Positions 6,287-21,285 of a stretch of DNA of 64,000 nt are shown piece by piece. Positions within the stretch are counted from its first letter, which is position 1. Each line of letters begins with the position of its first letter. Below the pieces are notes generated by a model that was given only the letters and a program-made list of their open reading frames with translations, did no database searches and had not been told where the DNA came from. The translations under genes were made by a program, and so were the position numbers. The stretch is from Nitrospiraceae bacterium (lineage in GTDB: Bacteria > Nitrospirota > Thermodesulfovibrionia > UBA6902). Location: the NCBI GenBank assembly GCA_020356065.1, contig CP070632.1, positions 354,321 to 418,320 of the forward strand, in the 5' to 3' direction.

Positions 6287-7297
6287 GTGAATACTGATGA
6301 AATGAGCGTTAACATGAAAAATAATAACCGCTGTTTACGAACTTTGCAATTTCTGGCATTCACTGTGCTCTTGGTATGTATTCCTCTGATTACTTTTTCA
6401 TCTGAAAAATTCTATACGGTGGCGATCAGCAGTTTTAAAAATGCTGCGCCTGCAGAGAAACAGTTTGATGTTATAGCACAGAAATTAAACATAACAAATC
6501 TGGATTATCTGAGAGTAGAAAAGATCGGGAAATTCTACAGTGTACGAATCGGTAAATTTTCGGATTCCAAAGCCGCAAATAAGTTACTCAGGACAGTCAA
6601 ACCGGTACTTCCAAGAGCTATTGTCTTACACACCGGCGTAATTGATGAAAGAATTGTAAAGATGTATACGCATTCGATACCGGATCCGCAGACAAAAAAG
6701 AATAAACCCTACTCTACATCTGAATCAGCAAGGAACAAACAACGTGTGACCAGCAAAAACAAAAATATGGTTCCGGGTATTTCATCAAAAGATTCCCTTG
6801 AAGTAGCGGGATCTCCTGCTGACAATAGCGGCAATACGCGTGTTGTAAAAGATACATTAACGATAAGCCTGGATAGAGTGGCAGGTTATATTGATGACGG
6901 TGATTATGCATACGCGCTGAAGATGTTAGAATCAGAAATAGACGATCATCCGGAGGACCCTGAACTTAATGCATGGCTAGGCACAGTGCTTATTAAAATG
7001 GAAAAGCCTTTAAAGGCATTATCGCATATGGAAAAAGCCGTGAAATTAACACCTGATAGAGCTGACTACCATAATGCTATCGGGTATTCACTGCTTTTGA
7101 GCAATAGGTTTGGCGAAGCAGTTTCTTCGTTTCAGCAGGCAATAGATCTTGATCCCCAGTTTGTCGATGCCATTGCTGGTCTTTGTATCGCGCATGTCAA
7201 GGGCGGTAATAAGATAAAAGCTATGTCTGTGTATAATAATTTGAAAGACCGGGATAAAAGAATATCTGATCAGCTTCTCACATTAATTGAAAAGTAG
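6287..7297 (+). CDS. Exported SPOR-domain and TPR-repeat protein
   Basis: The 336-aa product has an uncleaved anchor or signal peptide (about residues 18-38), then a SPOR-type region (about 42-120: FYTVAISSFKNA...KFYSVRIGKF). SPOR domains bind denuded glycan strands of septal murein. A low-complexity linker follows, and the C-terminal third (about 205-330) holds TPR units with the typical A-W-L-G and P-D-x-A-D-Y-H-N-A-I-G spacing. GTG 6287 is chosen because AGGAAG sits six bases upstream; in-frame ATGs at 6302 and 6314 are alternatives. It is divergent from the kinase across a 240-bp AT-rich gap. A role in cell-envelope or division assembly is inferred. Confidence 0.75.
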   Translation: MNTDEMSVNMKNNNRCLRTLQFLAFTVLLVCIPLITFSSEKFYTVAISSFKNAAPAEKQFDVIAQKLNITNLDYLRVEKIGKFYSVRIGKFSDSKAANKLLRTVKPVLPRAIVLHTGVIDERIVKMYTHSIPDPQTKKNKPYSTSESARNKQRVTSKNKNMVPGISSKDSLEVAGSPADNSGNTRVVKDTLTISLDRVAGYIDDGDYAYALKMLESEIDDHPEDPELNAWLGTVLIKMEKPLKALSHMEKAVKLTPDRADYHNAIGYSLLLSNRFGEAVSSFQQAIDLDPQFVDAIAGLCIAHVKGGNKIKAMSVYNNLKDRDKRISDQLLTLIEK

Positions 7298-7361
7298 CCG
7301 GTAATCCAGAATCCGTGACCCAAAAAACGGTCTAAAGTCAGCGGGTCCGCTATCTTACATA

Positions 7362-10352
7362 CTACTCGTTCAGGAATTTATTTAATACCTGCTGGTTGAA
7401 GGCGGGCAAACGATTCTTTCCTTCAGATACTGTTGTTGATACAGATGATTTATTACCATATGAATAATACATTAAACCAATAATTACAAATAAGACAAAA
7501 CCTGCAGATATGTAGGACCTCGTTTTCTTCAGGAGCCTGTTTACCTTAGCATAAACAGAATCACTGTCCTCCTGTACTCTGTCTGACTCCATTACAGATT
7601 CATTTATATAATCACTCACATACATGTGCTCTTTTTTAACTCCTGTATCTGTATCAACGATGAAAATACCTCCATCTGTCCCAGTCGGTACTGTCTCTTG
7701 TGTATTGTGAGTAAACCCGGTGCGCACTGTTGATTCTTCGACACATGGGATGAAATTATGATCGTCATGGTCATCAGCAGGTGTTTCGACTGCATTCCTG
7801 CTTCCGGACAGGATTATCTCATTCAGCTTTTCCTTTGCTTCTTCAACTTTTTCTTTCACTTCCTTATCAATCCTTGTCATTAACTCTTTTTCCACTCTGG
7901 CCCTTACATTCTCTTCAACTCTCCTTCGTATCTCTTCTTCTCTCCTTCTGACTTCTTCTTCCATCTTAATTTTCACTTCTTTTATTCTTCTCCCCACTGC
8001 TTCTTCTACCTGAGTATTTGCATCATCAACTTTTTCCCGAACCTCCTGTTCCATCTGTACTATTATGTCCTCTTCTCGCTTCCTGACGTCCTCATCCACC
8101 TTCCTCCTGACCTCTTCTGCCCTCTTCATCACTTCATTTTCCACTTTGACCACAAGCTCTGCATGTACTCTTTCTCTCATATCCTCTTCAAGTCTTATTC
8201 TAAAGGCCTCTTCACTTTGCCTGACTTCTTTCTCCAGGTTTTCCTTTATCTGTTTAACTCTTTCACTGACCTCCTTTTCCACATTCGCCTTTACTTCATC
8301 CACACGTTTTTTCACGTTCTCCTCTGCTACAGCCCTCATTTCGTCTTCTTTACGACTGATCTCGTCCTGTGCCTCTATCATTGCTCTTTCCTTTGCCTGA
8401 TCGCTGAGCTCTATTTCTCTCTTTTTTACCTCTTCTTCCACTCTTACCAGGACTTCTCCTTCCATTCTTTTTCGGGCTTCTGCCTCTCTCTTCTGTATAA
8501 CCTCTTCTGCTTTCTCCCATATCTCTTTTTCAATCTGTTTAATCTCTTCTTCCACTTTCGTCCTTACATCCGCAACCCCCTCTCTCACCGCATCTTCTGA
8601 CTTCGCTTTTACCGTTTCCACATTTCTTCTTACCTCTGCTTCTGCTTCTGCTCTTATTTCCTCCTCTCTCTGCCTGATTTCTTCTTCTACTTTTGCTCTC
8701 CCATCTTCTTCCATCCTTTTCCGCAGCTCTTCCTCCCGCTTTCTCATTTCCTCTTCAACCCGTGCATTGACCTCGGCTTCCACGTCCTCTCGTATCTTCT
8801 GCTCTTGCTGTTTGACCTCCTCCTCCGCTCTATGAGCCGCCTCCGCCTCTATTTTCTCCCTTGCTGCGGCTTCCCGGCGCTGTATCTCCTCTTCTGCTTT
8901 CGCCTTTATTTCTTCTTCCAGCCTGACACGCTCCCCATCCATCCTTGCCTGCAGCTCTTCCTCCCGCTTTCTCATTTCCTCTTCAACCCGTGCATTGACC
9001 TCGGCTTCCACGTCCCCTCGTATCGTCTGCTCTTGCTGTTTGACCTCCTCCTCCGCTCTATGAGCCGCCTCCGCCTCAATTTTCTCCCTTGCTGCAGCTT
9101 CCCGGCGCTGTATCTCCTCTTCTGCTTTCGCCTTTATTTCTTCTTCCAGCTGACTCCTTATTTCTTTTTCTCTCTTTAAAACTTCCTTCTCAATCGCAGC
9201 CTTTATCTCAGCTTCATTCATTTGAGCATTGTTATCAGTTATTCCTGTATTCACGGGGGATTCCTGAATATCGATTTTTTCCTTTAAATCATCATTCTTA
9301 TGCAATATCGCTTCGGTGTCGTCAGCAGCTGATTCACCCGGTACTTCAAAAAGAATTTCCATCGGCAGCTTTTCGTGAGCCTCATCATCACCTGTTACAT
9401 AAATGAGCCCTGTACTCAACAGGGCAATAATTGTCATGCGGGTCTCATTCTTGTTGGACGATGCGAGTGACAGTATTTTTGCAAACGAATTAACACCATC
9501 GATATAGGAGAGAATATGTTTATCAGAATTGCTAAGTGTCAAGGACTTGAATATTGGCATTGGATTTTCAGATATATTGAATACCGTCGAAAGAGGCGGG
9601 CACATTTTTTCAATTAACGCAATATTACTAATTTTCTTGACGCCCTTGTATACAAGCTTTGCCGAGCTGACCTGGAGGATTATCGACTCATCTGCAGGCA
9701 ACGATCCTTCCTTAAAATCGAACGTCCCATTTTCAATATTAAACAGGCCTGTAATTATATCTTCAACCTGATACTTGACTGACCTGATAAGGTCATTCTG
9801 CTTCAGGAAACCAAGGCTGACCAGAACTTTTCCGAGTCTTTCTCCTTTCTCTGAAGCGCGCTCAGCTGCCTGCCTGAGTTGCTCGTGAGTAATCTTTTTG
9901 CGATGTATGAGTAATTGGCCCAGCCGATCGTCAAGATCAGATGAATCAGCAAATATATTGTCCCCATTGCTGATAAAAATCCTTTTTTTTACTGAACCGC
10001 TTTTTATCTCGAGAATTCCTGTCTTCTTATTCTTATTGATACCAATGAGAATATCTGCAAGTCTGAAATGATTCAGATTCCCCTTGAGATTGCCGAGTCT
10101 TTTAAATCCTGCTTTCAGATGAAATCCAACATGCTCTGTCCATACGGCTTCTGCTTTTAATTCAATTTCAGTACCGAGAATTTTTATATCAACCTGTGAC
10201 CCTTTTACCAGTGCTGGTTCATATTTTATGATTATGCTGATACCGTCTGAATAGTCCAGTACCTTACCCTTTATAACTTTAGATTCGAATGTTACTTCAC
10301 ACTCGGAGTCGATCGTGTACCTTTTAAATTTTCTTTTTTCCTGTCCGTTCAT
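7362..10352 (-). CDS. PilZ + DUF4388 protein with very long charged coiled coil and C-terminal membrane helix
   Basis: The 996-aa product begins with a PilZ-like domain (about 1-90; the RKFKRY region resembles the c-di-GMP-binding RxxxR). A DUF4388-type region follows (about 90-330; KKTGILEIKSG, ISNGDNIFA, DDRLGQLLIHRKKI). Residues about 380-850 are an almost uninterrupted E/K/R-rich coiled coil. Within it, 66 residues (402-467) are repeated at 478-543 with two changes. A single transmembrane helix near 947-966 follows, with a short tail. DUF4388 proteins commonly accompany gliding or polarity regulators, so a c-di-GMP-responsive scaffold tethered to the membrane by its C-terminus is a reasonable inference. 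Function is not established. Confidence 0.8.
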   Translation of the reverse strand: MNGQEKRKFKRYTIDSECEVTFESKVIKGKVLDYSDGISIIIKYEPALVKGSQVDIKILGTEIELKAEAVWTEHVGFHLKAGFKRLGNLKGNLNHFRLADILIGINKNKKTGILEIKSGSVKKRIFISNGDNIFADSSDLDDRLGQLLIHRKKITHEQLRQAAERASEKGERLGKVLVSLGFLKQNDLIRSVKYQVEDIITGLFNIENGTFDFKEGSLPADESIILQVSSAKLVYKGVKKISNIALIEKMCPPLSTVFNISENPMPIFKSLTLSNSDKHILSYIDGVNSFAKILSLASSNKNETRMTIIALLSTGLIYVTGDDEAHEKLPMEILFEVPGESAADDTEAILHKNDDLKEKIDIQESPVNTGITDNNAQMNEAEIKAAIEKEVLKREKEIRSQLEEEIKAKAEEEIQRREAAAREKIEAEAAHRAEEEVKQQEQTIRGDVEAEVNARVEEEMRKREEELQARMDGERVRLEEEIKAKAEEEIQRREAAAREKIEAEAAHRAEEEVKQQEQKIREDVEAEVNARVEEEMRKREEELRKRMEEDGRAKVEEEIRQREEEIRAEAEAEVRRNVETVKAKSEDAVREGVADVRTKVEEEIKQIEKEIWEKAEEVIQKREAEARKRMEGEVLVRVEEEVKKREIELSDQAKERAMIEAQDEISRKEDEMRAVAEENVKKRVDEVKANVEKEVSERVKQIKENLEKEVRQSEEAFRIRLEEDMRERVHAELVVKVENEVMKRAEEVRRKVDEDVRKREEDIIVQMEQEVREKVDDANTQVEEAVGRRIKEVKIKMEEEVRRREEEIRRRVEENVRARVEKELMTRIDKEVKEKVEEAKEKLNEIILSGSRNAVETPADDHDDHNFIPCVEESTVRTGFTHNTQETVPTGTDGGIFIVDTDTGVKKEHMYVSDYINESVMESDRVQEDSDSVYAKVNRLLKKTRSYISAGFVLFVIIGLMYYSYGNKSSVSTTVSEGKNRLPAFNQQVLNKFLNE
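8724..9149 (-). repeat. Near-identical tandem duplication inside the coiled-coil gene
   Basis: Two 198-bp copies (8952-9149 and 8724-8921), offset by 228 bp, encode the same 66 residues with only two amino-acid differences (Thr/Lys and Gly/Glu). The DNA is almost identical, including synonymous positions, which points to a recent duplication or gene conversion rather than selection on the heptad pattern alone. The rest of the coiled coil is clearly diverged. Confidence 0.85.
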
Positions 10353-10731
10353 ATGATCAGAATAATCAGTACAATTCCATATTATTGTTTTTTCGCTGAA
10401 CTGCCCCTCTTAAGTCATTTCTTCAACCGCCTGTTTTCTCTTAAACACTATCGGTATTTTTAATACATATATTAAGGTAATGATAAAAATGTGGCACAGT
10501 GTTACATTGGATTTTACGAATAGAGTGAATATGTCTGTTTGACTCTTATTGAATTGAAATTCCAGGAGAAATCTTCAGTTGGGGGGTGATTTGTTCCGCT
10601 TAACAGGAAATTATCAATTCTCATCCCTCATTATCAACGAATGGCATCTTTTTTAACATATTGAGGATTTAAGAACAGTCAATGAGAACCTGGTTCTTCC
10701 AAGCTGCAGCATTGTGTTTTTAAAAAATTAC
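10353..10731. other. Intergenic region, no gene seen
   Basis: 379 bp of AT-rich sequence between two minus-strand genes. It presumably holds the promoter of the PilZ/DUF4388 gene. No convincing reading frame, RNA gene or terminator was found. Confidence 0.6.
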
Positions 10732-12501
10732 CTAATCCTCGTGGGATGAAGCAAGGTGAGCATATTTGAGGGTTGTTTTTAAACTTTTGTGCCCTAAAAT
10801 CTTCATTACTTTATTGATCTCCACCCCTTCCATAATAAGACGAGATGCAAACGTATGACGTAAATCGCGGAAATGGAAATTTTTTATGTTAGACCTTCTG
10901 CGTGCATTTGCGAATGATTTTGAAATATTCCGGTACGGTTTACCCGTCGTATTGTTATAAAACACATAGGGGACATCTTGACGCCTTGAAATATTTATGA
11001 GAGTATATTTCAGGATGTCGTTGATTGGTATCATTCTTTCACTTTTTCCTTCCTTGTCCAGCACGATGCATCCATGATCAATGTCTACATTTTCCCATTT
11101 CAGATTGAGCAGTTCAATTTTTTTCATCCCGGTATTCAGTGCTGTGATAACGATTGATTTAAGGGGAGGTTCACAGGAATTGATAAGTTGTTCGCATTCT
11201 TCTTTTGAAAGATACCTCGGCATCATGCTGTCATCACGAAGAACATGTACCTTTTCTACATTCCCCGTATCATCTGACTCAATCGAATTATTATCAGCAT
11301 GTAATCTTTTTTTAATTGATCGTTTCCTCTGAATAATCAGCAGTTGAAAAATTACTATACATATCAACGGACCCGACAAGATAAGAAAATGCTTCCTGTT
11401 CTTAAGGTTCATGCTTATCATTCCTACATTGCTTTTTTCTGTTTCTGTATTGTTGTCAACAGCATTGATCGATGCAGATTCTGTTGACGCAGCGTAATGA
11501 GTTAAGTTTTCATCTCTGAAGAAAGGATTCTTGTCTTTTCCGTCATAAACTTTGAAACTGATAGCTTTAAGAAGTGCAAATCTTAATTCAGACCAGTAAT
11601 CATATGCCATTGCCGGGTCTGAAGATGGGAGTTCTACTGTATACGTCGGAATTTTTCTCTCTTTTCCGGCATAGTTGCCTATTGATCCGGGAAAGAAACG
11701 AAAGTCCACGAGTTTTAGAAGATTATTTGAATTGGCTTCAATGTTTAATCCCAAGAACTTTGCCCGCTGCTCTACACGAATTAGATTGTTATATTTCTGA
11801 TCACCAGGCCCGTCAAAATCTAGAAAACCCAAAGGTGCATGAATAGTAATAATTTTATCTGGCCGGTATTTATTGACCAGATAGGTTTGCAGTCTGCTTT
11901 CAGGCTCTGAACCTGCTTTTGCACCCGGATATTTTCTCGGATCTTTCTTATATTCAATCCATACTTTTTGTGCTAACTGATCCCAGTCTCTCGTGGGAAG
12001 GTTTCTGTTAGGATCCACACCATTGGCATTATGTCTGGTGTTTGCAAAAAAACCTTCAGGATTTACTATGGGAGCTATAACCAATCTGAGATCCTCGAAT
12101 TCCTGTGGATTGTCAAAAAGAATCTCTCTGACTAAATGAAAGCAAATATATATGCTCGAAGGTTCATCTCCGTGAACACCGCATAAAAGCAGATTCACAG
12201 GACTGTTGTTATTGGTATCATTAAAACCAAATTCCTGGTATAAAAGAGGATATCCCTTAGAAGAGTAATTGAATGTTGTCCAACGGTCCTGGTTACATAT
12301 GATTTCATTCCATCCAAATTGCAGAAACTTATAATTGACAGCATCACAAAAATTTCTTTTTATATGCTCCTTTGGAAGTGAACCCATTGCCGTGTTTCCT
12401 GGCAGAGCAAAGAAAACCATGATAAAGGATAATAAGAAAAAATATGTAAATCTGCATTTTGTTCTGCCTGTTGTCATTCTGCTTCTCTGTAAAAAGATCA
12501 A
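10732..12501 (-). CDS. M14 zinc carboxypeptidase fused to a tyrosine-recombinase-like domain
   Basis: 589 aa with two unrelated halves. Residues 15-40 look like a signal peptide. Residues about 55-330 form an M14 peptidase with Zn ligands H110/E113 (GVHGDEPSS) and H221, substrate motif GVDPNRNLP and catalytic Glu290 (TVELPS), as in murein-peptide amidases. A helix at about 371-389 then leads to a basic stretch and a tyrosine-recombinase catalytic domain (about 425-589). The second Arg548 (RDLRHTFAS), His571 (LGHKS) and nucleophile Tyr580 (KYAHL) are present. The first catalytic Arg is Lys460 (NTGMKKIELL), and the HxxR His is Arg545. No frameshift separates the halves. The topology would put peptidase outside and recombinase inside. 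It starts 14 bp after the M15 peptidase gene. Confidence 0.8.
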   Translation of the reverse strand: MIFLQRSRMTTGRTKCRFTYFFLLSFIMVFFALPGNTAMGSLPKEHIKRNFCDAVNYKFLQFGWNEIICNQDRWTTFNYSSKGYPLLYQEFGFNDTNNNSPVNLLLCGVHGDEPSSIYICFHLVREILFDNPQEFEDLRLVIAPIVNPEGFFANTRHNANGVDPNRNLPTRDWDQLAQKVWIEYKKDPRKYPGAKAGSEPESRLQTYLVNKYRPDKIITIHAPLGFLDFDGPGDQKYNNLIRVEQRAKFLGLNIEANSNNLLKLVDFRFFPGSIGNYAGKERKIPTYTVELPSSDPAMAYDYWSELRFALLKAISFKVYDGKDKNPFFRDENLTHYAASTESASINAVDNNTETEKSNVGMISMNLKNRKHFLILSGPLICIVIFQLLIIQRKRSIKKRLHADNNSIESDDTGNVEKVHVLRDDSMMPRYLSKEECEQLINSCEPPLKSIVITALNTGMKKIELLNLKWENVDIDHGCIVLDKEGKSERMIPINDILKYTLINISRRQDVPYVFYNNTTGKPYRNISKSFANARRRSNIKNFHFRDLRHTFASRLIMEGVEINKVMKILGHKSLKTTLKYAHLASSHED

Positions 12502-12515
12502 TTTAATACTATCCC

Positions 12516-13367
12516 TTATATATTGTCACGTACTTTGATGTGCCAGGGTTCAAAACGGACTCCAAGGAGGTTCTTCTGCGGATAACGGAGCTTGAGATAG
12601 CCCAGTTCACTGAGTTTTTTGTATACGTCTGTATGAGTAAACCTCTTTGTGAAATTTGCAGCACCAAATCCTGCCTGTCCAACGTCAAAATCACCGTTGC
12701 CATGAAACGAATAACCCGGTGGCGCAAGTGATCGTGAGGCGAGGGAGAGATTGCCATGATTCTTGTCAGCTTTGTTTAAAAACAGCAGAAACTGTTTCAT
12801 AATACCACGTATACCGGAAGTTAAAACAACCTCGTCTCCTACGAGCTGTTTTATTTTTTCATAGGTTTCAAGAGGGAGGCCCCTGTATAGATAGTTTCCG
12901 GTGTGCGGTACCTTCATAGCTTCCTTTGTCTTTATCCGATCCGTAATTTTATTCAGGGGTTTTTGACCAAGAAAGCCGTAACGCTCTGCTTCTGCATAGA
13001 AGATCATTTCCATAAATCTGATTTCCGCCTTTGAAAATTCTCCAATCCGTGAATACTTGCGGGCTATGTTGAGACCATCCTCAAAGCTTAATATTTGAAA
13101 GTTACCATGTCCCGCGTATTGCTGGAGGCGCCTTAAGCGCTTTACCGTAGATGTAAACACTTTGTATATGGCATTATCGATTTGCACATCTTCGGCATGA
13201 TATTCATTGAAGTTTTCCATTTTGTTTAAATAATCCCTTATATGATCATCAAGATTTTGTGAAGGTGTTCTGGACATGATCTCCATGTTCTTTGCAACTG
13301 CATCAGGAGTAATCCCCCATCTGATTACACCCATCGCCAATATCTTCAGAAAATCCCTTCTATTCAT
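12516..13367 (-). CDS. Tat-exported M15 (VanY-like) D,D-/L,D-carboxypeptidase
   Basis: 283 aa. The N-terminus MNRRDFLKILAMGV is a twin-arginine-type signal. The C-terminal third has the M15 zinc motifs: GYSFHGNGDFDVG (His222, Asp228) and FEPWHIKV (Glu273, His276). M15 enzymes remove C-terminal D-amino acids from murein stem peptides in the periplasm. The middle, charged helical part (about 40-150) is not recognised. Together with the downstream M14 peptidase fusion (14-bp gap) it forms a two-gene murein-peptide-trimming operon by inference. Spacing between the first Zn His and Asp is one residue shorter than in classic VanX/VanY. Confidence 0.8.
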   Translation of the reverse strand: MNRRDFLKILAMGVIRWGITPDAVAKNMEIMSRTPSQNLDDHIRDYLNKMENFNEYHAEDVQIDNAIYKVFTSTVKRLRRLQQYAGHGNFQILSFEDGLNIARKYSRIGEFSKAEIRFMEMIFYAEAERYGFLGQKPLNKITDRIKTKEAMKVPHTGNYLYRGLPLETYEKIKQLVGDEVVLTSGIRGIMKQFLLFLNKADKNHGNLSLASRSLAPPGYSFHGNGDFDVGQAGFGAANFTKRFTHTDVYKKLSELGYLKLRYPQKNLLGVRFEPWHIKVRDNI

Positions 13368-13715
13368 ATTATTAAAAAAATTTAATGCTTAGATCGGTTA
13401 CCTTAATTTTGCCTTTTCGGTTTCTGAGCATTTTTTTTATTCTACCGAATTAATCATTTCAATCGTACATGTACTTAATATGTTTTTCATTCGGTATTCA
13501 TAATTATTATCTTGAGAAAATTTTCTATCATAAATCTTCACGATGAATATGATTATAGTAATCCCCGATTTCAAATACATTCAGATTATTGACTATTTGG
13601 ACAAAATGATGCTCCGGCCCATCCGATTTGATGATATTTCGTTAAATAACAGGCACTTACATGATATTGAGAATGTTCACTCACGTAAACAGATACTGTA
13701 GTAGAAGCTGTTATT

Positions 13716-13788
13716 TGTCACCCTGAATTTATTTCAAGGTCTTACCACCCGTTGCAACACAAGATTCTGAAACAAGTTCAGAATGACA
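13716..13788. repeat. Imperfect palindromic intergenic repeat
   Basis: TGTCACCCTGAATTTATTTC on the left and GAAACAAGTTCAGAATGACA on the right are near-complementary, separated by about 30 bp. It has the same plan as the repeat inside the element at 8-162, but with a different core sequence. The rest of the 525-bp gap 13368-13893 shows only AT-rich sequence and a terminator. Confidence 0.65.
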
Positions 13789-13826
13789 GTTGTGAGAATT
13801 TTTGCTTTCCGCAACAGTACCTAATT

Positions 13827-13855
13827 AAAAAGGCAGAGCCATTTCTGACTCTACC
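13827..13855 (-). terminator. Rho-independent terminator after the PEP-CTERM gene
   Basis: On the minus strand GGTAGAG pairs with CTCTGCC (one U-G pair) and is followed by TTTTT. It lies about 40 bp past the stop codon at 13894. Confidence 0.65.
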
Positions 13856-13893
13856 TGAAATCCCCTCCGGCATTTTCTCCCCTGTGTAAAGGC

Positions 13894-14601
13894 CTATTTA
13901 TTTAATTTCTTTCTGAATCTCTTCAATCCTAATGTTGCACCACCTGCTATAAAAAGGGCTGAACTGAGTGGCTCAGGAACTACAGGGGGAGCACTGCCTC
14001 CATCCGGGCGAACGATAAAGTCAAGCTTATTATCGCTATAGAAATTATTTTTTTCAAGTGCATTATTGTATGCATTTATCAGACTCCCATGATCATTTCC
14101 ACCCTTGGCGTAAAAATTCCCCCAAACAGGATCACGAGTGGTATCAAAACTATATGAAACTGAACTTCCTCCCTGATCAAACTTTATGCCGTAAAAAGAG
14201 TTGGGGATACTTTGATTGCCGGCATTTGCCCATAATTTTGGACCTTCCGCTGCTGAAGGATTACCATCGATGAATATATTTGTGATATCATCGTATTGAG
14301 TTGTATCAGTTAGTTCAAGAATAAAGTGAGAAATGTCTTTCTTTTCAATCGAGAGATTATATTCGTAATGCCATATCAACGCGTTGAGATCGTAGGTAAT
14401 ATTCCATGAAATGATGAAAGAATATGGCCAGTTTCCACTAAGACCTCCTTCAGATTGATTGGGATCATAATCCGGAGAAAGGGAAAATGTTCTTTGATCA
14501 TGCAGATCCTCAAATTGAACACTTTCTCCATATAGACTGGCGTCTACCGATGAGACAATGCTCAACGTTAATGCCAGTATCATGAGAACTAATCGTATCA
14601 T
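13894..14601 (-). CDS. PEP-CTERM sorted exported protein
   Basis: 235 aa with an N-terminal signal peptide (about 1-22, cleavage near SVDAS) and a classic C-terminal PEP-CTERM tail: VPEP near residue 208, a hydrophobic helix (SSALFIAGGATLGL) and a basic end (KRFRKKLNK). Proteins of this kind are delivered to the surface or matrix by an exosortase, which is not in this window. The body (about 25-200) is rich in Trp, Tyr, Asn and Asp, suggesting a beta-rich extracellular domain; its family is not recognised. Its ATG overlaps the stop of the Cys-rich gene 14598-14789 by 4 bp, so the two are translationally coupled. Confidence 0.82.
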   Translation of the reverse strand: MIRLVLMILALTLSIVSSVDASLYGESVQFEDLHDQRTFSLSPDYDPNQSEGGLSGNWPYSFIISWNITYDLNALIWHYEYNLSIEKKDISHFILELTDTTQYDDITNIFIDGNPSAAEGPKLWANAGNQSIPNSFYGIKFDQGGSSVSYSFDTTRDPVWGNFYAKGGNDHGSLINAYNNALEKNNFYSDNKLDFIVRPDGGSAPPVVPEPLSSALFIAGGATLGLKRFRKKLNK

Positions 14602-14789
14602 TTCATTATCACCTGAACGGGCATTTTACATATATAAATTTCACACGTGTTATAACTTCCGCTACAGAAGAAAATGGTTTTCTCAATATCCTGACTGCTC
14701 ATCGAGTTGCAATAGCATTCTTCCAGAGGTTCCCGTAACAAGGGACATATCTTTTTACTCTCTTTCACTATCTGTACATTCATACGCAC
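14598..14789 (-). CDS. Small Cys-rich protein coupled to the PEP-CTERM gene
   Basis: 63 aa with six cysteines in a patterned arrangement (CPLLREPLEECYC, then FFCSGSYNTCEIY). I do not recognise a named family, but the spacing suggests a metal- or disulfide-stabilised miniature domain rather than chance. Its TGA overlaps the ATG of the PEP-CTERM gene (ATGA overlap at 14598-14601), the strongest sign that it is real. There is no signal peptide, so it is probably cytosolic. Confidence 0.55.
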   Translation of the reverse strand: MRMNVQIVKESKKICPLLREPLEECYCNSMSSQDIEKTIFFCSGSYNTCEIYICKMPVQVIMK

Positions 14790-15004
14790 TCCTTTTTTAA
14801 ATTTTGTCTAATATACTAAAAGCAATGTATGTGCCAGGGCGCTGGGTGAGAAATCTGAATTTAAAATCAGGATGTTAGAAGTGGCAAGGAATTTTGCGTA
14901 CTGTGTCCGCAGGCATTTTGGCACAAGTATAAGTGTGCCACGTCTCAGTATCTACTCTCTTATCAATAACTTAAATAATTAAAGATCCCCTCCCCCGGCC
15001 CACG

Positions 15005-15190
15005 TTATTCATAAATATTTGAGCCATTGGAGGTAAGCCTTAAAAAAGTTTTAAATACGGCGCAAAGCATGGGGACATGATCAATCTAAGCAATTAAACA
15101 GCATTCAAAGTGTATGCTAATGTTCTGCCGTGAAAGCCGCTCCCAAAACTTTTTTAAGGCTTACCTCCATGGCTGTGTGAATAATATGAG
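15005..15190. repeat. Cruciform element A (28-bp stem, 92-nt loop)
   Basis: The arms at 15024-15052 and 15145-15172 are complementary over 28 bp with one bulged base; their shared core is GGAGGTAAGCCTTAAAAAAG. The loop 15053-15144 is 92 nt. The outer left flank TTATTCATAAATATTTGAG matches that of element B (19554-19572) with one difference, in the same orientation. The loop matches the loop of B only after reverse complementing: 65 of 92 positions by hand count, no gaps. A non-autonomous mobile or invertible element is inferred. Confidence 0.8.
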
Positions 15191-15302
15191 CCAGCTCCTC
15201 TCGGAGCAGATCCCGGTTCGGGTCTCTGATAGGGGTTGTATCAACTTCACGCAGAATCGCTTCGACTCTGGGAAAGAGGGGTAATCGTAAAATATTATTC
15301 AA
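15117..15302 (-). CDS. Doubtful 61-aa reading frame running into element A
   Basis: A TTG directly after the stop of the DUF4382 gene opens a 61-aa frame. Its first two thirds (PRVEAILREV, DPNRDLLREELAHIIH) look protein-like, while the last third is encoded by the right arm and loop of repeat element A. It may be the remnant of an older gene into which the element inserted, or chance. No family was recognised and no ribosome binding site is obvious. Confidence 0.2.
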   Translation of the reverse strand: MNNILRLPLFPRVEAILREVDTTPIRDPNRDLLREELAHIIHTAMEVSLKKVLGAAFTAEH

Positions 15303-16379
15303 TCAAACATCATCACCTGCCTCTTCCGCTTCCTCGACCTCAACCTCTTCGGCAATGTAGTGTTCGCCATTATAATCGTTCAGCTTGACCTTAACAAACG
15401 CATCCTTTTCCAGGTTACCCTCAACTTCAGCATTCTTATAATCTACGATTATGGTCTTGTTAGGTTGATACAATAATGAAAATATACTTTTAATAATATC
15501 AAGCTTTGAAACCGTTCCTTCCATTTTCAGGTAAATACCAGAAGCAATAACAGGCCCCTGATTAAAGTCAATACTCATACTCTTCACGATAACTTCCAGG
15601 TTATCTGATTTTGCAAGGTTAAGAAGGTTTTCAATATCTTCCTTTTCCACATCAGCGTACGATACAATTAAATCCCCGCTCCCCGTCGTTAATGTAAATT
15701 CTTTCTTTTCACTGCCCACAGCGGTAACATAACCGGATATGGCTTTTTTATATCCGTTTTCATGTTTCTTATCAACATCGGACTTATTAAGCGGAGAAAC
15801 TTTAATTGTCACAGAGCACCCTGATATATCGTCATTCACCACTTCAAACTTCTTGAGATCAAAGTCAAGGACAACATCCTCGGTCTTATTTTGCACTACT
15901 TTTACATTTCCGTTCATGTCCATAAAACAGTTTGTCTCATTTTCTTTTTCAATACATTGAAGAATATTGGGATTGTCATGCTGATCCTTGTGGGATGTGA
16001 ACCGGCAGGGAACATCTTCATCAAGCTGATTTGTTAACATTACATCCTGGGAAAATTCAATATGAATTCTGTTATAGTTTCCGGTTCTGCAATTATTGAC
16101 ATCCAGGAACTGAATCGTGGAAGAAAGGTCCGTGATATCCAGATCCTCCGGATTATAAAATTCACACACAGTGTCTGTTCCTGTATGTAACAGCTGAACA
16201 CCATTAATTGTTACCTCGACATGTTTGTAGTCTGCCGTTATATCATCGGTAACATAGAGAGCCACATTTCCCGTAGAGGAACGATCACCTGTACTCCCGC
16301 TGTCACCGCATGATATCCGCAGTACAGAACCCGATAGAAGAATCGAAATGCCACATAAAATGTATATGATTTTCTTCAT
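15303..16379 (-). CDS. Exported DUF4382-type protein
   Basis: 358 aa. An N-terminal signal (about 1-24) ends in RISCGDSGS, close to but not a perfect lipobox, so a lipoprotein is possible. Residues about 35-180 (ALYVTDDITADYKHVEVTI, NYNRIHIEF) fit the DUF4382 family of envelope or extracellular proteins. About 185-340 contains two repeats of a small beta domain (ISGYVTAVGSEKKEFTL, then VEGNLEKDAFVKVKL) like DUF5666. The C-terminus is strongly acidic. Biochemical function is unknown. Upstream is a 370-bp region with remains of the broken regulator. Confidence 0.7.
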   Translation of the reverse strand: MKKIIYILCGISILLSGSVLRISCGDSGSTGDRSSTGNVALYVTDDITADYKHVEVTINGVQLLHTGTDTVCEFYNPEDLDITDLSSTIQFLDVNNCRTGNYNRIHIEFSQDVMLTNQLDEDVPCRFTSHKDQHDNPNILQCIEKENETNCFMDMNGNVKVVQNKTEDVVLDFDLKKFEVVNDDISGCSVTIKVSPLNKSDVDKKHENGYKKAISGYVTAVGSEKKEFTLTTGSGDLIVSYADVEKEDIENLLNLAKSDNLEVIVKSMSIDFNQGPVIASGIYLKMEGTVSKLDIIKSIFSLLYQPNKTIIVDYKNAEVEGNLEKDAFVKVKLNDYNGEHYIAEEVEVEEAEEAGDDV

Positions 16380-16579
16380 CTCCTTACTCCTTTATTTAAG
16401 TGATTTTTACAAACACAATGATAATACAATACCCCTTTATGGAGTACAATACCGTGATTGATCCATTAGCCGTACCTGTCGACACAGTTTATCTGGAAAA
16501 GCAGGTGCGAAGCAATTATAAAGAACATTGATAAACATTCAGGAATGATAGAAGAAGATACAAAAATCCATATGGAATT

Positions 16580-17889
16580 ATGAACGATATTACTGCCGGA
16601 CAGAATGAACTGGGAAATGAAGATATGAATAATGAAGATATGAATGTTGATCTCAAAAAAATTATGAGAATGAGGTAAAGGCTTCATTTATTGACAATCT
16701 GACCGGTTTATTCAATCATGGTTTTTTTCAACTGGCACTGGACCTGGAGATGAAGAGGTCCCGTAGATGTGGAAAGCCATTTACCCTTGCCCTGATCGAT
16801 GTTGATTCGTTCGCATTTTACAACAGGCAAAATGGTCCCGCCAAAGCCGACAGGACCTTAAAGGAAATAGCCGATATCATAAAAAAGAACGTCCGTGATG
16901 TAGATGTGGCAGCGAGATATTCGGGAGAAGCATTTGCCATAATTCTCACTGAATGCACGCCAGGAGATGCAGCCCATGTTATGGAAAGAATCAGACAGGA
17001 TGTAGAACTGCGCGAAGGGGAACATACGACAATAAGCATCGGAATTGCCGATTATCCTGCTTCTGCTGATATAAAAGAGACCTTTCTCAGGAAAGCAGAA
17101 GAGACTCTGGACAAAGCCAAGATTCTAGGGAAAAACAGAGTAACCATCTTCAGGAAAGAGGAGTATCAGCTCTGTGATCATGCCCCGCGGATATTGATAG
17201 TTGATGATGAACCAAAGAATATAAAATTGCTGGAAGCCTTTCTTATCCCCTTTAACTATGAACTGTTAAAGGCCGAAAATGGTGAAGATGCATTGACGAT
17301 TATTGACAGAACACAGGTAGATCTGGTGCTGCTGGATGTCATGATGCCTATTATGGACGGTTACGAAGTATGCCGCCGTATCAAGGCAACTGACACCACT
17401 CGCATGATCCCGGTCATAATGGTAACGGCTTTGGATGATACAGATGCCAGATTAAAGGCTATTGAGATGGGTGCTGATGATTTTATCACCAAACCGCCCA
17501 ACAGAGTTGAGCTGCAGGCCAGGGTAAAATCACTGGTAAAAGTAAAATTACTCAACAACACGTTGACCAGCCTTGAGAGCGTACTGTTCTCCCTCGCAAA
17601 CACGGTTGAGGCCAAAGATGAATATACCAGTGGACATACATTGAGAGTTTCGGATTTGGCAGTTGCGCTTGGGAAAAAGCTGGATCTGCCTCATACTGAT
17701 ATTAACGCAATTAAAATCGGGGGCATCATTCATGACGTTGGCAAAATCGGGGTGCCCAAGTCCATTATAAATAAGCCAGGACAACTGGATCCCGAGGAAT
17801 TCAAGATCATGCAGTCCCATCCTTATATCGGGTATAAGATATGCATGCCATCCCAACTCCTCATGATCTCTTTATATCAGGTGTTCTGA
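16580..17889 (+). pseudogene. Broken GGDEF-REC-HD-GYP regulator
   Basis: The frame from ATG 16750 lacks the start of its GGDEF domain. That start is encoded immediately upstream in the same frame (NLTGLFNHGFFQLALDLE) without a usable start codon. The preceding frame from ATG 16580 runs into the A7 run at 16655-16661 (CTC AAA AAA ATT) and stops at 16678; a -1 shift at the run restores a continuous protein. Signs of still earlier breaks go back to about 16454. The GGDEF site is SGEAF (residues 58-62 from 16750), so diguanylate cyclase activity is unlikely. A receiver with Asp196 follows. The HD-GYP domain keeps HD (328-329) but ends after about 80 residues, losing the GYP half. Decay is favoured over programmed frameshifting. 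Confidence 0.7.
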
Positions 17890-17938
17890 GATACTCCTGA
17901 TACAGGTTTAATTCCCTGCGGATAAATAGAGATACCCT

Positions 17939-19291
17939 CTACTTACATTTTACTGTGGTAACCGTATCAACCCCTTCTATTCCTTTACCATCGATGGTTT
18001 CCCCTATTAAATAAGCTTCTGTATCACCGCACATTATGCCCGTATCATGAGTTTTGAAGTGTAATACAAGATCGGGAAGTCCATCCTCATTTATATCTTC
18101 ATAGTGACCTTTACCATGAGATTCTTTGGCTCCATCTGATTCAAACACCATGGACTCTGATCCAAACCTGATAGTCAGCGGGGCTATGGTAGTGACATCA
18201 CAATTGTTTGAGTTCAGAACAGCAACAGGGATTACACCCTTTGAACGGGGGTTTATCGTATTTTCCAGGCTGTCAGGTTTAATATCTATATACACGGGTA
18301 AACACTTCGTCTCTGTGAATTCTGTAAAAATCTGCACATGATTCTGGCTTACATCAGTAATATAGATATCCCCAAATCCGTCAATCGCTACTCCCGCAGG
18401 ATAAATGAACTGACCGTCCTTGTATCCAAAGGAGCCCCACATCATCAAGAAATTACCATCGGTATCAAATTTCTGAATTCTATAGTTTAATGAATCTGCC
18501 ACATATACTTCTCCCTGCCTGTTCACGGTAATTCCAGAGGGTGAAAAGAAATGCCCCTCCCTGTTGCCGCCAAAACCCCATTTAGTGATAAACTTATTGT
18601 TTGCATCAAACTTTTGAATTCGGTTGTTATTTTTCTCAGACACAAAGACATTCCCCTTGTTATCAACAGCTATACCAAAGGGATGAATGAACTGACCGTC
18701 ATCTGCACCATACGTTCCCCATGAGGTTATAAAGACGCCATCTGCATCAAACTTCTGAATGCGATGATTATAGCGGTCAACGACATAGACGTCATCAACG
18801 CTGTCTATTGCTATTCCGACAGGATTTGCGAACTGACCATCACCAGAACCATAGGATCCCCATGTGGTTAAAAAGATGCCGTCTGCATCAAATTTCTGAA
18901 CACGATGATTATGGAGATCAATTACATAGACGTCATCATAGCTGTCTAATGCTATTGCAACAGGATTTGCGAACTGACCATCACCAGAACCATAGGATCC
19001 CCATTTGGTCATAAAGTTGCCATCTGGATCGAATTTCTGAACACGGGAATTACGTTGATCAACTATATAAATATTGGCCCTGCTATCAAATGCTACGTTC
19101 CAGGGCCCGTTAAAATGACCATCACCTGAACCGGTCTGCCCCCATTTTGCAACGAAGTCCGGTATATCTGCTCCATAGACATGACCGCACATTACCGTTG
19201 TTATAAGAAGCATTCCGATTATGAGATACAAGATAACCAATGCAATATTCTTTTTTGAACAGGCCGTATACGTTCTCAGAATTAATGTCAT
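17939..19291 (-). CDS. Exported NHL-repeat beta-propeller protein
   Basis: 450 aa. A hydrophobic signal lies at about 16-40, then six NHL units (about 45-330) of the form W-G-x-x-G-x-x-x-G-Q-F-x-x-P-x-G-I-A-V-D ... V-x-D-x-x-N-x-R-I-Q-K-F-D. These suffice for one six-bladed propeller. The C-terminal 120 residues form a separate domain (YIDIKPDSLENTINPRSKG, INEDGLPDLVLHF, DTEAYLIGET) seen attached to other secreted repeat proteins, with a calcium-site-like Asp/Asn cluster. Strong DNA similarity between blades 1-3 indicates recent internal amplification. It is likely a secreted or surface binding protein; the ligand is unknown. Confidence 0.85.
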   Translation of the reverse strand: MTLILRTYTACSKKNIALVILYLIIGMLLITTVMCGHVYGADIPDFVAKWGQTGSGDGHFNGPWNVAFDSRANIYIVDQRNSRVQKFDPDGNFMTKWGSYGSGDGQFANPVAIALDSYDDVYVIDLHNHRVQKFDADGIFLTTWGSYGSGDGQFANPVGIAIDSVDDVYVVDRYNHRIQKFDADGVFITSWGTYGADDGQFIHPFGIAVDNKGNVFVSEKNNNRIQKFDANNKFITKWGFGGNREGHFFSPSGITVNRQGEVYVADSLNYRIQKFDTDGNFLMMWGSFGYKDGQFIYPAGVAIDGFGDIYITDVSQNHVQIFTEFTETKCLPVYIDIKPDSLENTINPRSKGVIPVAVLNSNNCDVTTIAPLTIRFGSESMVFESDGAKESHGKGHYEDINEDGLPDLVLHFKTHDTGIMCGDTEAYLIGETIDGKGIEGVDTVTTVKCK

Positions 19292-19553
19292 TTGCCTATC
19301 CTCCTTTTTTCAAGATCGCACCAATAAAGCAATCTCTATTATCTCAATTATGTAAAGGATCTCCAGTAATGTATAAAACACAGTAACCTCCAGGGCAATG
19401 TCTGTCCTTACTCTATTGTCTTACAGGCATGTCAGGAATAACTGTGATTAGGGACACAAATATTTTTATCCATTATGTGTATTGAAAGGCGCAGAAAAAA
19501 ATATGTTTATGTTGCAGAAAGGAGATATGGGCCCTTGATATATCTACCCCGTA

Positions 19554-19735
19554 TTATTCATAAATAATTGAGTCATGGGGGGAGGCTTTAAAAAAGTTTT
19601 GGGATCGGCTATCACAGCAGAACGTGAGCATATTCTTTAAGCGTTGATGTTATGAAAATATTGATGATATCCTCTTGCATTGCACCGTATTCAAAACTTT
19701 TTTAAAGCCTCCCCCCATGACTGTGCATAATATGG
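19554..19735. repeat. Cruciform element B (30-bp perfect stem, 92-nt loop)
   Basis: The arms 19571-19600 and 19693-19722 are perfectly complementary over 30 bp (core GGGGGGAGGCTTTAAAAAAG). The loop 19601-19692 is 92 nt, the same length as in element A, and matches A's loop only in reverse complement. The outer flanks match those of A in direct orientation. It sits in the 600-bp gap 19292-19890, which otherwise holds only a solo repeat arm. Confidence 0.85.
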
Positions 19736-19804
19736 GTTAAAAAACATCCGAAATATTCGCAATCCAATTTTTATATCGAGAATCCGTCCCCTTATGAAAA
19801 AACT

Positions 19805-19838
19805 CTGGATTCCCGCTCAACAGACTGCGGGAATGACA
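19805..19838. repeat. Solo arm of the GTCATTCCCG-type repeat
   Basis: CTGGATTCCCGCTCAACAGA continues to GCGGGAATGACAA. It matches the right arm of the palindrome nested in the element at 8-162, but no good left arm is present. Likely a degenerate copy. Confidence 0.55.
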
Positions 19839-19890
19839 AACAAAGGAGTATATGATGATCCCGATGCAGAGCATCGAGGAATTCTTTTGA

Positions 19891-21285
19891 TTAAAATGAT
19901 AACAGGTATTCAGCAAGATTAATGTTGTATTTGTGAGGATCGAGTGTTTTTAGAATACTCTTTGCATATTCCCCTGACTGGTCTCTTTCTGCAAGGTCAA
20001 CGGTAAACCCATCGACTTTTTCTCCGGATCTGTCGACAATAATCAGGACCTTTGGCCTGTCGGTATATTTCGTATTACTTTCGCAGACAATGCCCATCTC
20101 TCCTGAATCAAGAAGAACCAATGAACCTGCAGGGTACAATCCAACCATGTGGATAAACAGATTAAGCAGACGCGGATCATAGGAGTGTGATGTTTCCATC
20201 ATCTTGCGGACTGCTTCATCAGGTGAAAGGGGAATCCTCTGGTACACCCTCGAAGAAGTCATTGCATCATAACGGTCGGCAATAGTGACAATATTTGAGT
20301 ACACGTCCAGCGCCATAGGGTGCCTTATTTCCGGATAACCTGAATGCTTGCTGCTCATATGGTGTTCCATGGAAACTATGGCATTAGATATTATTGAATT
20401 GTCAGGTTCTTTCAGCCTCAGCAATGAAAGCGCCCCTAAATAGGGGTGTGTCTTCATCACCTTCCACTCTTCTTCCGTAAAGTCAGAAGGCTTGTTCAGA
20501 ATTTCGCTCGGAATGGCAGTCTTGCCAATATCATGGAAAAGAGCCGCAAAACCTAATTCCACAAGGGCCTTACGTTTTAATCCAATCCTCTGGCCCATCG
20601 AGATTGAAAGGACACTGACATTCACACTGTGATGATAGGTATATTCATCAAACTCTTTAATTGCGCTTAAGCCGAAGAGCAGCTGTTCTTCATTAAAAAG
20701 AGCATCGACAATTGTTCCAACGACTCTCTTTGCCGATTTAACACTGACATTTTCTTTGGACTCCACTTTAGACATAAGCCCTTTTACAAAAGATACGGCA
20801 TTAAAGTAAGACCTTATAACTGTCCTCCTTCTGTCGTTTTCTTCTTCCCTGATGTATTTCAATCTATCCACTTCGATACTCTGTATATTCTTGAGGGATA
20901 CTTTTAATGACTCAAAAGGATCATCCTGATATGCTGCATCGGTAAATATCTTAAGGAACTCTTTAACATCATCCATGCCGAGTTGAGAGATGAAAGCGAC
21001 ACTCCCTAGATCCCTTCTGACAAATTCCTTCGCGAGGTCATCAAGGATAATTGAAGACTTCGAAGAAAATTTTACCCTTGTATTATTCAGATAGAATAGA
21101 TCACCTATCAGGTCTATTTTCTGGATTCCATCATGTTCGATAAGCGGATTCATGAGGTTAAGAAATACCTCAATTGAACTTATCACAACAGCATTATCAA
21201 TATCATGGAATTGACCCTGTTTAAGAACAATTGCAAGTTTCTTCAGAACATCTTCGATAATGATATCGTCTGCTTTTTCATTCAT
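19891..21285 (-). CDS. HD-GYP domain phosphodiesterase with novel N-terminal module
   Basis: 464 aa, cytosolic. The C-terminal half is a complete HD-GYP domain: HHSVNVS (218-219), FHDIGK (His251-Asp252), EHH (308-309), GYP (316-318) and the downstream DRYDAMTSSRVYQ block. This predicts cleavage of c-di-GMP or a related dinucleotide. The N-terminal 200 residues are not a known sensor domain but resemble the N-terminus of the adjacent HEAT-repeat protein (VAFISQLGMDDVKEFLKIF here, LTFIKGIPRDEVGDFLKIL there). The start overlaps the end of that gene by 8 bp, so the two are cotranscribed and probably act together. Confidence 0.88.
   Translation of the reverse strand: MNEKADDIIIEDVLKKLAIVLKQGQFHDIDNAVVISSIEVFLNLMNPLIEHDGIQKIDLIGDLFYLNNTRVKFSSKSSIILDDLAKEFVRRDLGSVAFISQLGMDDVKEFLKIFTDAAYQDDPFESLKVSLKNIQSIEVDRLKYIREEENDRRRTVIRSYFNAVSFVKGLMSKVESKENVSVKSAKRVVGTIVDALFNEEQLLFGLSAIKEFDEYTYHHSVNVSVLSISMGQRIGLKRKALVELGFAALFHDIGKTAIPSEILNKPSDFTEEEWKVMKTHPYLGALSLLRLKEPDNSIISNAIVSMEHHMSSKHSGYPEIRHPMALDVYSNIVTIADRYDAMTSSRVYQRIPLSPDEAVRKMMETSHSYDPRLLNLFIHMVGLYPAGSLVLLDSGEMGIVCESNTKYTDRPKVLIIVDRSGEKVDGFTVDLAERDQSGEYAKSILKTLDPHKYNINLAEYLLSF

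Follow-up and report, generated by a model that had tools for sequence, protein, structure and literature searches.

An apparent in-frame fusion of an MpaA-like M14 peptidase, a predicted transmembrane segment and a probably recombination-dead integrase domain in a Nitrospiraceae bacterium

The window (the whole 64,000-nucleotide stretch of Nitrospiraceae DNA that was analysed) contains a minus-strand gene that appears to place a cell-wall peptidase and the catalytic (CAT) domain of a tyrosine recombinase in a single polypeptide. The locus raises the question of whether the two halves belong to one gene and, if so, whether the product is a membrane signalling protein, as a preliminary description of the sequence had proposed, or an evolutionary accident. 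The explanation we favor, with a probability of roughly 0.58, is a lineage-specific fusion that yields a membrane-anchored murein peptidase with a recombination-dead tail as a passenger. The features are listed in Table 1, and residues are numbered throughout according to the 589-aa frame.

Continuity of the fused frame

The 589-codon frame contains no internal stop. Pfam profiles and hydropathy arrange the protein, from the N- to the C-terminus, as a signal-like segment, an MpaA-like M14 peptidase, a transmembrane segment and a tyrosine-recombinase CAT domain. Both the uninterrupted frame and this order of parts had been read from the sequence in the preliminary description, and both are borne out here, with an N-terminus that is signal-like. 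The ATG is a likelier start than the upstream TTG because the sequence reads GAGAAG a few bases before it. Throughout the M14, linker and integrase parts, the fused frame has codon scores like those of coding sequence, and the scores of the other five frames are well below. In the linker, stops are present in the other two forward frames, and the chance of an open 50-codon frame at the linker composition is P ~0.009. By these sequence measures, the joining of the frame is beyond chance and the fusion looks real.

Such a frame could also come from an assembly chimera, or from a local sequencing error through which an M14 gene and an integrase pseudogene were run together. The architecture is seen in a single genome, whose completeness is 95% and whose contamination is 1.6%. 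However, this genome is one 3.17-Mb contig in which the M14-integrase junction is single-copy and no chimera-causing repeat is present, the frame and its coding-like codon scores continue through the linker, and the genome holds no other copy of this integrase to misjoin. We regard an artefact of this kind as unlikely.

Table 1 Features of the fused gene and its upstream neighbour in the window (coordinates are window positions).
Feature	Coordinates	Strand	Remarks
VanY-type D,D-carboxypeptidase	12516..13367	-	Tat-like N-terminus; PF02557, 5.6e-10; directly upstream of M14
Fused gene, longest frame	10732..12501	-	TTG 12501 start; 589 aa
Fused gene, likely extent	10732..12477	-	ATG 12477 start; 581 aa
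Signal-like N-terminal hydrophobic segment	12376..12477	-	residues about 9-42
MpaA-like M14 zinc peptidase and variable C-tail	11440..12375	-	residues about 43-354
Predicted transmembrane segment FLILSGPLICIVIFQLLIIQ	11329..11388	-	residues 372-391; followed by basic stretch RKRSIKKR
Tyrosine-recombinase CAT domain	10735..11292	-	residues about 404-589; PF00589

Over 19-residue stretches, the hydropathy of the fused protein is highest at FLILSGPLICIVIFQLLII (residues 372-390, mean Kyte-Doolittle value 2.74), and the second hydropathy peak is found at residues 15-40. Applied to the former and to the basic stretch that follows it, the positive-inside rule predicts that the M14 half lies outside and the integrase domain inside. 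The AlphaFold2 (AF2) model has a helix at residues 379-399 at low pLDDT. Among 100 relatives, no homologue of residues 350-412 was found, and the transmembrane segment therefore appears to be new; nor is the linker a copy of any other sequence in the genome or in the relatives.

The peptidase half and its VanY partner

Residues 78-222 match Pfam Peptidase_M14 (PF00246) above the cut-off (2.1e-13), and the likeness to other M14 tails stops near residues 354-357. All the catalytic residues expected of an M14 enzyme had been reported to be present; the zinc and catalytic residues H110, E113, H221, and E290 are indeed invariant across an alignment of 10 M14 sequences. MpaA is a cytoplasmic enzyme. 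The M14 fold and catalytic motifs are common to the fused protein and MpaA (murein tripeptide amidase; PDB 4axv, 5hxd), and 4axv is the best sequence match of the M14 half among solved structures. The fused M14 differs from MpaA by its signal-like N-terminus, its pairing with VanY and its score against the NCBIfam MpaA profile (4.9e-21, 74.8 bits), which is under the equivalog cut-off of 157 and places it outside the MpaA equivalog. The relatives of the M14 half also carry an N-terminal hydrophobic segment.

The VanY gene ends 38 bases before the start of the M14 half. By gene order, M14 is the usual genomic neighbour of VanY in the order, with the two adjoining in six of the eight related loci. 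A second VanY-M14 pair is located near 1440 kb of the same genome, and its M14 (L002) is tail-less. The VanY-M14 pairs of Thermodesulfovibrionia and relatives (L002 and L079-L084) share the gene order and 52-63% M14 identity with the locus studied here, whereas all of them are without the transmembrane segment and the integrase tail. The M14 tree places the fused copy beside that of G046, from another family of the same order (split support 96), and away from the L002 type, which suggests that the two M14 types of the genome are paralogues of long standing. In two congeners, the matching VanY (82% DNA identity) has no M14 behind it; therefore, this M14 copy appears to be dispensable in the genus.

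The fused M14 departs at seven of the 119 sites on which the other nine sequences agree, compared with 0-7 for the others. Its branch has an omega of 0.137 against a background of 0.109, which is not a significant difference. On this sequence evidence, the M14 half is under normal constraint, and the enzyme has probably kept its activity while gaining a membrane anchor.

The integrase-derived domain

The CAT domain was assigned to its fold and family by the Pfam Phage_integrase profile (PF00589; residues 430-586, 1.8e-27, 96.6 bits) together with the AF2 model. pLDDT is 91-97 across most of residues 431-580, the M14 part is partly confident, and the transmembrane region is low; on this basis, the CAT domain is confidently modelled as folded. 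A Foldseek search with the model matched the XerA, P2, and HP1 integrases (TMt at most 0.72, CAT-only chains), and the fold is shared with XerA/XerC-like CAT domains (PDB 5hxy, 4a8e). Intact integrases from the class and phylum, which are about 350-400 aa long, share 50-60% identity with the CAT half over their C-terminal half. With the tyrosine integrases of Nitrospirota (for example L012, L013, L061, and L062; 50-60% identity), the fold and R548, H571, and Y580 are held in common.

All 35 aligned relatives have the full catalytic set of R, E, K, H, R, H, and Y, while the fused copy is without three of the seven. Specifically, the first arginine is replaced (R460K), the TKN motif at residues 484-486, which carries the catalytic lysine of the beta2-beta3 hairpin near residue 485, reads EGK, and the HxxR histidine is replaced (H545R); E463, R548, H571, and Y580 are retained. 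The alignment is in agreement with the preliminary description on Lys460, Arg545 and the retention of Arg548, His571, and Tyr580, and adds to it the altered TKN motif and the absent core-binding half. A neighbouring lysine might substitute for the catalytic one, in view of a one-residue deletion near the EGK hairpin. Since homology to integrases starts at about residues 402-411, the protein has neither the N-terminal nor the core-binding part of an integrase. Compared with tyrosine integrases, the fused protein is without the core-binding half, R460, the TKN lysine, the HxxR His545 and the C-terminal tail, and its CAT domain is attached to a predicted periplasmic enzyme. An active tyrosine recombinase has the full R-E-K-H-R-H/W-Y set and a core-binding domain; here the set is incomplete and the domain absent, and it is very unlikely that the CAT domain works as a recombinase. 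Preferential loss of active-site residues was considered and rejected (3 of 7 active-site residues changed, against 8 of 44 at the remaining conserved positions; no significant difference, Fisher p=0.16).

Changes are found at 11 of 51 family-invariant residues of the CAT half, compared with 0-3 in its own subfamily and 13-16 in two distant outgroups at the same positions. Its terminal branch is also the longest in the tree, at 0.96 substitutions per site, the next being about 0.52. In the branch model, omega is 0.17-0.185 against a background of 0.077 (2dlnL ~4.9), and a model with omega=1 along the entire branch is rejected (2dlnL ~40). From these sequence analyses, the CAT half is evolving faster, yet a wholly neutral branch is rejected. 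Because the branch includes time spent as a free integrase, a short recent neutral phase remains compatible with these values; by a hand estimate, roughly two nonsense changes would be expected from such a phase, and none is seen.

These rates bear on the possibility of pure neutral decay, according to which the tail is a pseudogene fragment that is read through by chance and is being lost. The accelerated CAT branch and the substitutions at invariant sites are what decay would produce, and the congeners that have no copy of this M14, together with a paralogue that could supply its function, are consistent with loss. On the other hand, the CAT region of about 555 bp has no stop or frameshift despite 72-83 amino-acid differences from its nearest relatives, and omega=1 is rejected for the branch as a whole. 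Pure decay thus seems quite improbable. The stop-free CAT region, the rejected omega=1 and the folded AF2 model are hints that the tail may be kept as more than a passenger, although part of the branch dates from its time as a free integrase.

Distribution, possible role and surroundings

No second M14-integrase fusion was found among 101 relatives, 37 genomes from the family, 47 from the order and a 396-genome sample of the phylum. The 80 M14 loci of named genomes, which include 8 relatives from the order, likewise had no transmembrane segment or integrase tail; the named relatives are Nitrospirota, mostly Thermodesulfovibrionia MAGs. As the paralogue in the same genome, the eight order relatives and the 80 database loci are all tail-less, with neither helix nor integrase, the fusion is species-specific as far as visible. 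Single-sequence scans of genome contigs and of viral sequences gave no relatives, phage and plasmid collections gave distant integrases or MpaA-like matches only, and no plasmid record covered at least 80% of the query. In the source genome there is no donor copy of the integrase; the only other PF00589 matches found are two short fragments adjoining masked stretches, at 3084797-3085213 (L059) and 2695277-2695645 (L060) of contig G000:C1, and one XerC/D-like gene.

In the literature searched, nothing relevant on M14/recombinase fusions or membrane integrases was found, and the statement in the preliminary description that no described system of this architecture was known holds for the sequences and literature covered. 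The absence of the fusion from close relatives, which had been named there as grounds for refutation, is what we observed: none of the relatives searched is fused, and conservation fails. This absence does not make the fusion an artefact, and the locus is a warning against taking a striking architecture from a single genome for a conserved system.

The proposal of a membrane signalling protein is retained in part. The architecture, the predicted topology and the loss of catalytic residues agree with it, but an established system does not follow, as no fused relative was found among those searched and the core-binding partner is lost. It can be put as a membrane-tethered one-component regulator, with an outer M14 that would bind murein peptides or trim them and an inner, catalytically dead CAT that would bind DNA to repress or activate genes. 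The hydropathy and charge pattern fit the layout of transmembrane regulators (extracytoplasmic domain, one transmembrane segment, cytoplasmic domain) in a predicted topology, the segment and its charges being suited to an N-out/C-in orientation, and the CAT domain is predicted to be folded, stop-free and with omega below 1. ToxR, CadC, and TcpP have winged-helix DNA-binding domains in a domain order that is the reverse of that in the fused protein, and unlike it they have established regulons. With the fused protein, as its topology is predicted, they share a periplasmic domain, a single transmembrane segment and a cytoplasmic domain in one chain (PMC10269533). The survey of transmembrane transcription regulators makes no mention of an integrase or recombinase (PMC10269533). 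A precedent is offered by MrpR (YopR), the master repressor of phage SPbeta, which likewise has a recombinase fold with active-site losses and a retained tyrosine (PMC10516654), and the idea of a regulator is therefore respectable. However, MrpR lost a different set of residues, keeps its core-binding domain, which is missing here, and has demonstrated DNA binding; the features described for it do not include a membrane helix or a fused enzyme (PMC10516654).

Other observations stand against a regulator. The fusion is confined to one species among the genomes searched, whereas a conserved architecture would be expected of a transmembrane transcription regulator and was not seen in the order relatives, the phylum sample or the 80 M14 loci. 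The CAT net charge is also lower: its 189 aa carry +4, in part because of an acidic linker, and the nine relatives for which charges were counted carry +7 to +15. The changed conserved sites include the active-site TKN hairpin, and no target site or regulon supports regulation. We thus consider a one-component regulator unlikely. The fuller analogy, a new kind of membrane-tethered regulator in which a periplasmic murein peptidase would sense cell-wall peptides and control a dead-recombinase DNA-binding domain, appears decidedly unlikely. If the protein is made and binds DNA, it would represent an early stage in the conversion of a mobile-element integrase fragment into a membrane-tethered switch for cell-wall genes.

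Because the fusion was found in one species only, it is most likely an evolutionary accident. For the favored anchored peptidase with a passenger tail, the ancestor would have been a periplasmic MpaA-like M14 murein-peptide peptidase that partnered VanY. A genomic tyrosine integrase would have supplied its C-terminal half, joined in frame behind the peptidase when a deletion or rearrangement linked the M14 gene to what was left of an integrated element. The novel stretch of about 50 codons between them would happen to encode a transmembrane helix whose inside flank is positively charged. The product would be anchored in the inner membrane with M14 outside and CAT inside. The CAT domain would fold, be unable to recombine DNA and serve chiefly as an anchor or passenger. 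With the core-binding domain gone, its binding to DNA, if any, would probably be weak. Even with a passenger tail, the locus offers a clear in-frame fusion that would give a periplasmic enzyme a new transmembrane anchor.

On the far side of the fused gene from VanY, window positions 7362-10352 encode a protein of 996 aa. It has PilZ and DUF4388 domains, a hydrophobic segment near the C-terminus and a very long region that is rich in Glu/Arg/Lys and resembles a coiled coil. A probable PEP-CTERM-type surface protein (Pfam match under the cut-off) is encoded at 13894-14601; its DNA matches, at 79% identity, a stretch of the congener G002 that is not on the VanY contig of that genome. An Rfam scan of window positions 7000-20000 gave no match. 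Two dispersed repeats lie nearby. One of about 140 bp (13690-13830) has three other long copies in the genome and more in congeners, and the other, a MITE-like palindromic repeat of about 190 bp (14998-15188) with perfect 25-nt inverted arms, is present in about 28 copies in the source genome and in many in two congeners.
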